34,147 nt of DNA from Hellea sp. (GTDB lineage Bacteria > Pseudomonadota > Alphaproteobacteria > Caulobacterales > Maricaulaceae), in contig JAHDBU010000010.1 in NCBI GenBank assembly GCA_020630275.1, forward strand, positions 1 through 34,147. The letters run 5' to 3'. Positions 1,441 to 5,319 of this stretch are shown in pieces; the stretch's first letter is position 1; every line of letters starts with the position of its first letter. The position numbers and the translations under genes are program-made. A model generated the notes under the pieces. The model saw only the letters and a program-made list of their open reading frames with translations, did not search any database and was not told the origin of the DNA.

Positions 1441-2283
1441 TTAGTGCTTAACGTTCCGCCAAACTTCTTTGTAAGCGAAGAACAGAAGACCAGCCAGAAT
1501 AAGCAAATAGATCATCACAGATAATCCCAAACTCTTGCGGGCTTCCATTTTTGGATCAGCCGTCCACATGAGGAATTCTGTCACGTCCTTGGCCATCTGC
1601 TCGCGCGTAGCTTCTGGTGGCTGGATCTCTTTAACAGAGCCATCTTTGTTCTGGACCTTGATAACCTCATATTCGACTTTTCCGTCAAACAACTGGTCCG
1701 GCATAGCTACCTTAGTACCCAGAAACTTGTTGAACATATTGTCGTCTTTGTCATAGCCCAGCAGGAAGCTGTAGATATGATTGGCACCATCCGGGCGTGC
1801 TTTGGCCATTACCGAAAGATCTGGCGGAGCTTTTCCAAAGTTCGCAGCTGCCGCAGCGACATCATTCGGGTAAGGCGATGGGAATTTGTCGACAGGTTTG
1901 CCGTCCCGAGGCAGGTCCTCTCCCGTATCCCAGTCGATATCCTGAATCGGCACAGGATAATTTTTAGCGATATATTTCACAACCGGATTATCAATCGGAT
2001 TTGGATATTTCTTATCGTAAAACGGTCCACCCTTATCGCCCAGGTGGCGGAAAGACATGAACTTCAGCTGATGGCAGGAAGAACAGACTTCTTGATAGAC
2101 TTGATAGCCGCGCTGCATGGCGTGCCGGTCAAATTTTCCAGTGAAACCATTGAAGCCCCATTCGACCTTCTTCTTGTATTTGCTGTCGCCACCGCCAGCC
2201 GCTTCAGCGACTTTGACGCCGGCAAATGCCGCCAGGCCTAACGCCGTTGCGGCGACCAAGGCTGTTTTCAACGTCAGTCTCAT
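1441..2283 (-). CDS. petC: Cytochrome c1 of the bc1 complex
   Basis: Signal peptide, heme motif CSSCH, ...MSFRHLGDKGGPF, C-terminal TM anchor; overlaps the cytochrome b gene by 4 nt. Confidence 0.95.
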   Translation of the reverse strand: MRLTLKTALVAATALGLAAFAGVKVAEAAGGGDSKYKKKVEWGFNGFTGKFDRHAMQRGYQVYQEVCSSCHQLKFMSFRHLGDKGGPFYDKKYPNPIDNPVVKYIAKNYPVPIQDIDWDTGEDLPRDGKPVDKFPSPYPNDVAAAAANFGKAPPDLSVMAKARPDGANHIYSFLLGYDKDDNMFNKFLGTKVAMPDQLFDGKVEYEVIKVQNKDGSVKEIQPPEATREQMAKDVTEFLMWTADPKMEARKSLGLSVMIYLLILAGLLFFAYKEVWRNVKH

Positions 2284-3572
2284 GATGACGCTCCTCCAGA
2301 AGGTACTCCTCCCGACGACGATCCTCCGAGTACGGATTTGGTGATGGATTCCGGTAACTCTTTGGGCTTCTCAATCATGCCCATAATCGGCAGGATCAAA
2401 AGGAAGTAAGCAAAGTAATAAAGGGTAGATATTCTTGACAGCCACAGGAAGTTCAGTCCTTTGCCTTCGCCCATCGGGATCGCAATATCCGATGGCGTCG
2501 CCGCACCGCACCACCCCAAAATAAATGAGTTGATCAGAAACAGAATGAACCAGATACGAGTCACAGGTCGGAAACGCATGGAGCGAACCTTGGACGTATC
2601 CAGCCATGGCAGGATGAATAGAACCGCAATGGCTCCGACCATCAGTAACAGCCCCATCAGCTTGTCTGGCACAGCCCGCAGGATGGCATAGAACGGCAGG
2701 AAGTACCATTCCGGCACGATGTGTGCGGGTGTCGCAAGAGGGTCGGCCTCGATGTAGTTATCAGCATGCCCTAACGCGTCGGGGTAGTAAAAGATGAAGA
2801 AGGCGAATATCAGTAGAAAGACGACAATCGCAAAGGCGTCTTTGACCGTGTAAAAAGGGTGGAACGGCAAAGTGTCTTCCTTGGATTTTGGTTCAATACC
2901 GACAGGGTTATTTTGACCGGTATGATGAAAAGCCCAAATGTGCAAACCAACGATTGCCGCAATCAAGAACGGCAGCAAATAATGCAACGCGAAGAAACGG
3001 TTGAGCGTCGCATTGTCAACCGAATAACCGCCCAAAATCCATTGCTGCAGCGCCTCTCCCACAAACGGAACCGCCGTAAAGAAGTTAGAAATCACGGTCG
3101 CGCCCCAGAATGACATCTGCCCCCAAGGCAGAGTGTACCCTAAGAAGGCCGTCGCCATCATGATTAGGTAGATAATACAACCTAATATCCAAGTCATTTC
3201 CCGAGGGGCCTTGTAGGAGCCGTAGTAAAGCCCCCTGAACATGTGAATGTAGACAGCAAAGAAAAACATCGCTGCCCCCACTGCGTGCATGGGTTGAATT
3301 AACCAACCAAAAGGCACGTCACGTCGTATACGCTGAACATCGGAAAACGCGACATCGACATTCGCCGTGTAATGCATCGCCAAAATGATCCCCGAGATAA
3401 TCTGGACCATAAGGCAAAGTGTCAAAATACCGCCAAACGTCCACCAGTAATTCAAATTACGAGGACTTGGGTATGTCATAAAATCTGCGCCCATCCGGAC
3501 AATCGGCAGACGTTTATCTAGCCACTTGGTGACGCCGTATTTTGGTTCATATGTTGAAAGATGTCCGCTCAT
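2280..3572 (-). CDS. petB: Cytochrome b of the bc1 complex
   Basis: 430 aa multi-TM protein with NYWWTFGGILTLCLMVQIISGIILAMHY, GYTLPWGQMSFWGATVI, PEWYFLPFYAILRAVPDK. Confidence 0.97.
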   Translation of the reverse strand: MSGHLSTYEPKYGVTKWLDKRLPIVRMGADFMTYPSPRNLNYWWTFGGILTLCLMVQIISGIILAMHYTANVDVAFSDVQRIRRDVPFGWLIQPMHAVGAAMFFFAVYIHMFRGLYYGSYKAPREMTWILGCIIYLIMMATAFLGYTLPWGQMSFWGATVISNFFTAVPFVGEALQQWILGGYSVDNATLNRFFALHYLLPFLIAAIVGLHIWAFHHTGQNNPVGIEPKSKEDTLPFHPFYTVKDAFAIVVFLLIFAFFIFYYPDALGHADNYIEADPLATPAHIVPEWYFLPFYAILRAVPDKLMGLLLMVGAIAVLFILPWLDTSKVRSMRFRPVTRIWFILFLINSFILGWCGAATPSDIAIPMGEGKGLNFLWLSRISTLYYFAYFLLILPIMGMIEKPKELPESITKSVLGGSSSGGVPSGGASS

Positions 3573-3574
3573 GA

Positions 3575-4144
3575 TTAACCGACCTTGATAACAGTATCTG
3601 AAACGTATTCGTAAGGAGGAATAACGAGATTTTCTGGTGCAGGTCCTTTACGTATACGGCCCGCCGTATCGTAGTGTGAACCGTGGCACGGGCAGTACCA
3701 ACCGCCATATTCGCCCAGCGCGTCAACTTTGCCTTGCTCGCCAATCGGCACGCAACCAAAGTGAGTGCAAACGCCAACCATAACGAGGTAGCGCGGGTCC
3801 AGCTTGCCTTCTTTGTTGGGCATCAGGCGCTCATTATCTGTGGCTGGATCCGGTAGAGTTGCCACATCAACGGCTTCGGCCTCGGCAATCTCGGCAGGTG
3901 TTCTATGTCTTACAAAGACAGGCTTGCCGCGCCAAAGCGACTTTACTTGTGAGCCTTCGTCAATATTGGAAAGGTCAATTTCAATCGAACCCGCAGCCTT
4001 TGTATCGGCAGCCATACTCATTTGCGAAACCAAAGGCCATCCTATGGCGCCAGCGCCGACAGCAGCGACAGCCCCGGCAGCAATATAGATAAAATCGCGC
4101 TTCTCTTCGTCTACGTGATCATGTGAGTGTTCGGTGTCAGACAC
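3575..4144 (-). CDS. petA: Ubiquinol-cytochrome c reductase Rieske iron-sulfur subunit (canonical)
   Basis: CTHFGC ... GGWYCPCHGSHYD, KRDFIY Tat-type anchor, GPAPENL Pro loop. Confidence 0.97.
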   Translation of the reverse strand: MSDTEHSHDHVDEEKRDFIYIAAGAVAAVGAGAIGWPLVSQMSMAADTKAAGSIEIDLSNIDEGSQVKSLWRGKPVFVRHRTPAEIAEAEAVDVATLPDPATDNERLMPNKEGKLDPRYLVMVGVCTHFGCVPIGEQGKVDALGEYGGWYCPCHGSHYDTAGRIRKGPAPENLVIPPYEYVSDTVIKVG

Positions 4145-4189
4145 GGGAGAATCCCTTCCATTTTACACATGTAATTTCGAGCGTCGTAA

Positions 4190-4206
4190 TAAACATTTTG
4201 TGTTTA
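4190..4206. promoter_or_regulatory. Short inverted repeat upstream of petA (possible regulator site)
   Basis: TAAACA-ttttg-TGTTTA in the 102-nt gap between the two Rieske genes; function not shown. Confidence 0.25.
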
Positions 4207-4224
4207 AAAGGCTAATTTTTAATC

Positions 4225-4239
4225 GCGGCACAACGCCGC
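4225..4239 (-). other. Small GC hairpin just after the second Rieske gene stop
   Basis: GCGGC-acaac-GCCGC perfect 5-bp stem in the gap; no convincing T-run on the minus strand. Confidence 0.4.
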
Positions 4240-4246
4240 AAGCTTT

Positions 4247-4816
4247 TTATCGCCGGATGAATTTGTGGTTTGGAAACTCCACAATGTTTTCAGTCACATA
4301 TTTAAATTCAGGTATGGGCAGATTGGTTGGCGAGGGTCCTTTTCTAACGCGGCCAGACGTATCGAAATGCGCACCGTGAGACGGACAATACCAGCCACCA
4401 TAATCGCCCATTGGATCCTTTTTGTTTTGCTCGCCTGTAACGATCGCCCCGAAATGGGTGCAGACCGCCGATAGGATCAGAAAGCGTGGGTCCAGAGTGC
4501 CATCGGGCCTTGGGCGCAAGCGATCTTCATCGGTTTCCGGATGAGGCAAAGTGGAAATGTCGACATTCCTGGCGGTATCAATTTCCCACTGGGCACGATG
4601 ACGAATAATCACAGGCGTCCTATTTGCCAAAATTTTAATCGCTGACCCTTCGGGAATAAGACTCAAATCAACAGTGATGGGACGACCGACCACGATATCA
4701 TTCGCGATCCCGGTGCTCTTGGCTAAAGGAATTGTTGCTGCAGCCACGCCCCCTGCGGCCATAACTCCCGCCGAAATAAAAATGAACTTGCGTCTGGTTT
4801 GGTTTGATTTGTCCAC
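4247..4816 (-). CDS. Divergent Rieske-domain paralogue lacking the disulfide cysteines
   Basis: 189 aa, TRRKFIF Tat motif plus TM anchor, CTHFGA ... GGWYCPSHGAHFD, GPSPTNL Pro loop; clearly homologous to the adjacent petA product. Confidence 0.92.
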   Translation of the reverse strand: MDKSNQTRRKFIFISAGVMAAGGVAAATIPLAKSTGIANDIVVGRPITVDLSLIPEGSAIKILANRTPVIIRHRAQWEIDTARNVDISTLPHPETDEDRLRPRPDGTLDPRFLILSAVCTHFGAIVTGEQNKKDPMGDYGGWYCPSHGAHFDTSGRVRKGPSPTNLPIPEFKYVTENIVEFPNHKFIRR

Positions 4817-4869
4817 GGTTGCATCCTAGCAAGGCGCGGAGTGAAGGCAAGATAACGGAAAGTCGCACA

Positions 4870-5319
4870 ATGAAGGTCACGCTTTACCAGCCCGATATCG
4901 CCCAGAACCTGGGCGCGGCCATGCGGCTTTGTGCCTGTTTTGATGTGCCGCTGGGTGTGATCGAACCGTGCGGTTTTCCCTTATCCGTCAAAGCGCTGCG
5001 ACGGACGGCTATGGATTATGGGACCGCAGATGATTTGACCCGCTATGCAAACTGGGACGCATTTCAATCTAAGGCCTCAGGGCGAACAGTCTTATTTACG
5101 ACGAAAGCGGCCGAGCGGCTGGAACGTTTTGAGTTTCAAGCGGGAGACCATCTATTATTCGGACGGGAGAGCGCCGGCGTGCCGGACGATGTGCACGCCT
5201 CAGTCAACGCCCGCGTTATTATTCCTCTGGGCCCTGATGTGCGGTCTTTTAACCTCGCGACAAGTGTAGCCATTGGGTTATATGAAGCCCTGAGGCAAAC
5301 AAATGGACTGCCGAAATGA
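4870..5319 (+). CDS. trmL: tRNA (cytidine(34)-2'-O)-methyltransferase, SpoU family
   Basis: [38 protein letters not shown] ... [15 protein letters not shown] ... [26 protein letters not shown]. Start set at the internal ATG 4870, not 4804. Confidence 0.93.

Follow-up and report, generated by a model that had tools for sequence, protein, structure and literature searches.

A fast-evolving second Rieske gene beside petABC in Hellea and Litorimonas, probably a petA duplicate with a stepwise altered cluster pocket

The tuning of Rieske proteins by the serine and tyrosine of the cluster pocket, as well as the contribution of the disulfide, is known mainly from mutants. The window, which is the whole 34,147 nt stretch of Hellea sp. 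DNA analyzed here (contig JAHDBU010000010.1), contains a second bc1-type Rieske gene (hereafter par) that naturally lacks these features, directly upstream of an intact petABC. The locus raises the question of whether the pocket was concertedly rewired, as the initial annotation proposed, or came apart in a copy of PetA freed from the Q-cycle. The answer reached here is that par is a real and rare anomaly, and that purposeful rewiring is an over-interpretation of it.

The par gene and its setting

The features of the locus are as follows.

4247..4816, minus strand: par, divergent second bc1-type Rieske gene, 189 amino acids plus stop, GTG start
4715..4816, minus strand: twin-arginine (RRKF) signal/anchor helix region of par, residues 1-34 (PF10399)
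4445..4462, minus strand: first cluster loop of par, CTHFGA; ligands C and H kept, disulfide Cys replaced by Ala
4361..4387, minus strand: second cluster loop of par, CPSHGAHFD; ligands C and H kept, Cys to Ser, Ser to Ala and Tyr to Phe
4319..4339, minus strand: Pro loop of par, GPSPTNL, as read in the sequence
3575..4144, minus strand: petA, canonical Rieske iron–sulfur protein (ISP) of bc1 (CTHFGC...CPCHGSHYD)
2280..3572, minus strand: petB, cytochrome b, with a single orthologue in nine of the ten genus genomes
1441..2283, minus strand: petC, cytochrome c1 (CSSCH)
4870..5319, plus strand: trmL-like gene, divergent neighbour marking the syntenic site
4817..4850, minus strand: promoter-like TTG-N16-TGCTA upstream of par, putative function
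4225..4239, minus strand: palindrome GCGGC-N5-GCCGC between par and petA, putative regulatory role

The genes petA, petB and petC share the strand of par, while the trmL-like gene and hemF diverge on its other side. The two CxHxGx motifs of par are separated by 19 residues, which is the PetA spacing, and the two Cys and two His ligands of the [2Fe-2S] cluster are all present. Four pocket residues have changed (C131A, C153S, S156A and Y158F in window PetA numbering): with Ala and Ser in place of the two cysteines no disulfide can form between the cluster loops, and the Ser and Tyr hydrogen bonds that give a high potential are absent, Ala and Phe having replaced these residues. The initial reading of the position, motifs, spacing and Pro loop, and of intact ligands beside four lost pocket residues, was thus borne out throughout.

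The protein scores 129.1 bits against the family model TIGR01416, compared with 214.2 bits for PetA and a cut-off of 97.4, and passes both Pfam UCR_Fe-S_N and Rieske; since these thresholds are passed, par is a bc1-type Rieske homologue rather than a chance ORF. Its best family is TIGR01416 and not a ferredoxin or dioxygenase Rieske domain. The RRKF motif and a PF10399 score of 28.0 bits (cut-off 24) support a membrane-anchored, Tat-type bc1 paralogue. For most of the soluble domain the AlphaFold2 model has a pLDDT above 90, the N-terminal signal/anchor region being its low-confidence part, and it superimposes on the bovine Rieske fragment (1RIE) with a TM-score of 0.92 and an r.m.s.d. of 1.5 Å; among the structure matches listed there are bc1 ISPs and isolated Rieske domains, and no others. 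Nevertheless, par is only 48-49% identical to PetA of the window and has lost 24 of the 65 residues that are near-invariant in PetA of the family, as defined on 39 PetA rows. The organism is a Hellea-type member of Robiginitomaculaceae, and its earlier placement in Hyphomonadaceae is corrected accordingly.

The TTG-N16-TGCTA element ends ∼9 nt before the start codon of par, and in each of the five Hellea-group loci it stands at a fixed distance before whichever Rieske copy comes first. The element upstream of petA consists of the palindrome and an A/T-rich block and is partly kept in Litorimonas; the palindrome itself precedes petA across the genus, both in genomes that have par and in those that lack it, and is imperfect or weaker in G004. 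As petA has its own upstream element, par did not acquire the petABC promoter through the duplication. The palindrome may resemble RegA/PrrA/ActR sites. A 157 nt tract running from this palindrome into the first 59 nt of petA (4086-4242) is identical at 156 of 157 positions to that of the sister species G005, unlike petA as a whole, which differs between the two at ∼58% of synonymous sites; the tract may reflect either recent recombination or a strongly constrained leader. No match to an Rfam family was found anywhere in the window.

Distribution and origin of par

A canonical-type Rieske protein is encoded in all ten genomes of the genus, and five of them (the window, G001, G003, G005 and G007) carry a divergent copy at the trmL–petA junction. 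In G002, G006, G008 and G009 trmL directly adjoins petA with nothing between them, and G004 gave no second Rieske match. Three genomes of the Litorimonas group, including that of the isolate Litorimonas cladophorae KCTC 23968, also carry par, so that the trmL–par–petA slot is common to eight genomes; among the 137 family genomes scanned, no other was found to have par. G015, G034 and G044 do encode a second Rieske protein, but these copies were rejected as par, having canonical pockets and lying elsewhere.

A DNA pattern for GW[FY]CxxHGAxFD matched seven stretches among 84,980 species genomes, namely six par loci and one unrelated betaproteobacterial PetA. A similar Ser-to-Ala/Tyr-to-Phe pattern matched five of the 398 genomes of the order, all at par, and the matching canonical pattern was found in 41 of 41 relatives. 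These counts indicate that the combination is rare and tied to the par locus. Exact-peptide patterns taken from the window protein found no relative in genome contigs, the gene being too divergent for patterns of this kind, and no paper on the paralogue was found in the literature.

Several observations were made alongside this survey. In G003 (L033 6533-7742) two tandem Rieske genes follow trmL, one with a canonical pocket and one with CTHFGS/CESHGAYFD; the contig ends before petA/petB, no petB was found in this 100%-complete MAG, and a third Rieske copy may be missing from the assembly. The alignment of G002 PetB (L036 5606-7027) is split in two, ∼50 additional residues preceding the C-terminal part. 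The betaproteobacterial match, from the MAG RIFCSPLOWO2_12_FULL_62_58 (L068 4207-4827), is a bc1 PetA with GWYCPCHGALFD that adjoins petB; the Ser-to-Ala/Tyr-to-Phe pair therefore occurs there in the apparent main ISP, with the disulfide kept.

With the pocket and loop masked, the par rows fall on one side of a branch with support of 94/80 (not starred), and at 13 alignment sites the par proteins of Hellea and Litorimonas share a residue found in no compared PetA. A six-residue insert between the cluster loops (residues 137-142 of window PetA, 3719-3736) is present only in Hellea PetA and Hellea par; it is missing from Litorimonas par and PetA and from the PetA of G002 and G004. This shared insert makes separate duplications or gene conversion possible. 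Trees joining Hellea par with Hellea PetA gave AU p values of 0.067-0.09 against that arrangement. A single origin of par with many losses is favoured, and the sequences suggest that par probably arose as a tandem duplicate of petA within the Hellea/Litorimonas part of Robiginitomaculaceae.

Pocket changes, selection and predicted function

The eight divergent copies differ in how far the pocket has changed. Ser-to-Ala and Tyr-to-Phe are found in all of them, whereas the disulfide Cys pair is intact in four (G007 and all three copies of the Litorimonas group), reduced by one Cys in G001 (CTHFGY) and fully lost in the window (A/S) and G003 (S/S). The cluster ligands are intact in seven, the exception being G005. 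This genome is the sister of the window species (PetA 97% and PetB 95% identical), yet its par is only ∼36-42% identical to that of the window, has a deletion of ∼20 residues and has the pocket CPREGC...CTCCGAYFD, which lacks both His ligands but retains the two disulfide Cys and has acquired a fifth Cys. The marker tree is ((window, G005), G003), and because G005 has kept its cysteines the losses of the disulfide in the window and G003 are most simply independent. The shared Ser and Tyr changes together with the variable disulfide indicate that the pocket was lost stepwise; a concerted rewiring does not fit changes of which one set is group-wide and another later and lineage-specific, with both His ligands missing in G005. 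Beyond the pocket, W71, R72, I164 and G189, near-invariant in PetA like S156 and Y158 within it, are lost in all eight copies, and most hinge residues and P133 are gone from most.

With regard to the G005 copy itself (L034 6770-7276), the two cluster loops contain five Cys and no His, the predicted fold still matches Rieske domains, and an altered metal site is possible judging from the loops. A chimeric assembly behind the divergence of par between the window and G005 was considered and is unlikely, as the genes on either flank diverge to the same degree, that of sister species, and par aligns at both of its ends.

The copies are nevertheless under some constraint. Between the window and G005, dN is 0.647 for par and 0.020 for petA, a nonsynonymous rate ∼30 times higher, and dS is ∼2.6 and ∼1.1, respectively. 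The resulting omega is ∼0.25 for par, a rough value because synonymous sites are near saturation, against 0.018 for petA and 0.02-0.08 for neighbouring genes; within the Litorimonas group omega is ∼0.1 for par where computable. Differences at the three codon positions number 77/67/102 for par and 4/4/78 for petA, and the third-position excess in par indicates a weak but present constraint. The end branches of Hellea par (1.1-3.5, against a median of 0.24) are several times longer than those of the PetA rows. The ORF is intact in all eight genomes, whereas in a simulation of neutral drift fewer than 1% of ORFs stayed open at 0.5 or more substitutions per site. The initial view that par is not a decaying ORF is supported to this extent.

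The loss of Ser and Tyr was predicted to lower the potential, and this sequence-based expectation agrees with published yeast mutants, in which the Ser change gives -130 mV and the Tyr change -65 mV in a roughly additive manner (cited in PMC12954380). However, Kustd1480 has Phe in place of the Tyr and nonetheless reaches +335 mV (PMC12954380), so that the potential is not readable from sequence with certainty. The accompanying statement that loss of the disulfide destabilizes the cluster is not general: a yeast ISP without it still assembled its cluster, although the quinol site was damaged (PMC3119413), and AioB of NT-26 naturally lacks it (PMC3758308). As its four ligands remain, par of the window probably still takes up a low-potential cluster. 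If present, this cluster is estimated to have a potential of about +100 mV or below, which would be too low to run the high-potential branch well. The loss of the His ligands in G005 makes a conserved low-potential redox role in the window/G005 lineage doubtful, and an accessory or drifting role appears more likely there. The sequence of par, its synteny and distribution, the order and rate of its changes and its predicted fold are thus shown directly, while we infer its potential, cluster content and role, and its absence from Q-cycle turnover.

Among the explanations, we lean modestly towards par being a PetA duplicate with a low-potential ancestral pocket that escaped Q-cycle constraints and is now a fast-diverging accessory protein. 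The first shared changes would have been Ser to Ala and Tyr to Phe, together with the disappearance of W71/R72 and of residues in the hinge and at the C terminus. Their product would be a membrane-anchored Rieske protein, exported by Tat and low in potential, that had ceased to serve quinol bifurcation, which would have stayed with PetA. Once unconstrained, par may have turned into a rapidly changing accessory protein, dispensable and situated at or near bc1. The window copy retains its ligands and probably a low-potential cluster but not the disulfide brace, while the G005 copy, with its Cys2His2 site lost, would represent a lineage drifting from redox towards a cluster-free or altered-metal role. 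Against this reading, par is missing from half of the ten genus genomes and from almost the whole remaining family. That patchy presence would also suit a non-functional duplicate in slow decay, in which erosion of the pocket is plain relaxation, as would the accelerated rate, the gradual disappearance of pocket residues, eventually including ligands, and the deletion in G005. This is rather unlikely given the eight open frames, the third-position excess, the low omega within the Litorimonas group, the small neutral expectation and the conserved upstream element of par.

It is decidedly unlikely that par is an alternative or regulatory low-potential ISP that, depending on conditions, stands in for PetA in a part of the bc1 complexes, throttling or rerouting quinol oxidation. 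Its place next to petABC on the same strand, its separate promoter-like element, a soluble domain predicted to fold as a bc1 ISP and the ligands kept in seven copies are in keeping with such a role. However, par has lost hinge, transmembrane and W71/R72/P133 residues that are invariant in PetA, its dN is far above that of petA, G005 has lost the ligands and half of the genus lacks the gene; the alternative bc1 subunit first suggested is disfavoured on these grounds and by the universal loss of I164 and G189. A stand-alone low-potential carrier or redox sensor, maintained in that role across the whole group, is very unlikely: the universal Ser-to-Ala/Tyr-to-Phe pair and the conserved, more strongly constrained pocket of the Litorimonas group would agree with it, but not the loss of both His ligands in a sister species, the full or half loss of the disulfide in three others, or the lack of a conserved partner gene besides petABC/trmL. 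Highly improbable, finally, is that one syntenic slot holds a natural step-by-step dismantling or rebuilding of the Rieske site, hydrogen bonds first and then disulfide or His ligands, in which the Rieske fold of the G005 copy may have come to hold a metal or cluster by Cys alone. A constraint-released duplicate of PetA thus remains the preferred reading.

Comparison with known systems

Canonical PetA (TIGR01416) and par are alike in the Tat anchor, the basal and cluster domains, the four ligands, the Pro loop and the fold. They differ in that par lacks the disulfide and the Ser and Tyr hydrogen bonds and evolves far faster, with PetA present next door. A laboratory counterpart of two of the par changes is provided by mutant structures of the Rhodobacter sphaeroides ISP soluble domain (2NUM, 2NVE and others), which include Ser and Tyr pocket variants; these are engineered and keep the disulfide.

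Among natural proteins, AioB of NT-26 (PMC3758308) resembles par of the window in lacking the disulfide and having Phe for Tyr. However, AioB keeps the Ser, has an F/G pair that shields its cluster and has AioA as its partner, whereas par has a bc1-type domain and no neighbouring aioA, its neighbours being petABC, trmL and hemF. Of the published proteins, the closest to a Rieske subunit that persists despite a broken site is the 'deranged' ISP from Acidocella (Acetobacteraceae), where the gene is retained although cluster-site residues are lost, the only bc1 present being itself deranged (PMC10715153). With ligands lost and both disulfide Cys kept, it resembles par of G005 and shows the opposite pattern to par of the window, which keeps the ligands and loses the disulfide. 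Furthermore, whereas the Acidocella bc1 is deranged, PetA and PetB orthologues are present and conserved here, the altered protein being additional to them. Genomes of other proteobacteria can also encode more than one Rieske protein, for example mlr0970 of Mesorhizobium loti (PMC6256036), but such second proteins sit in separate bc1-type clusters, while par has no second petBC.

The par locus thus offers natural proteins with several pocket combinations beside an intact bc1, and one carrier, L. cladophorae, is a cultured isolate. Both the order in which a Rieske pocket comes apart and the fate of a PetA copy freed from the Q-cycle become testable.
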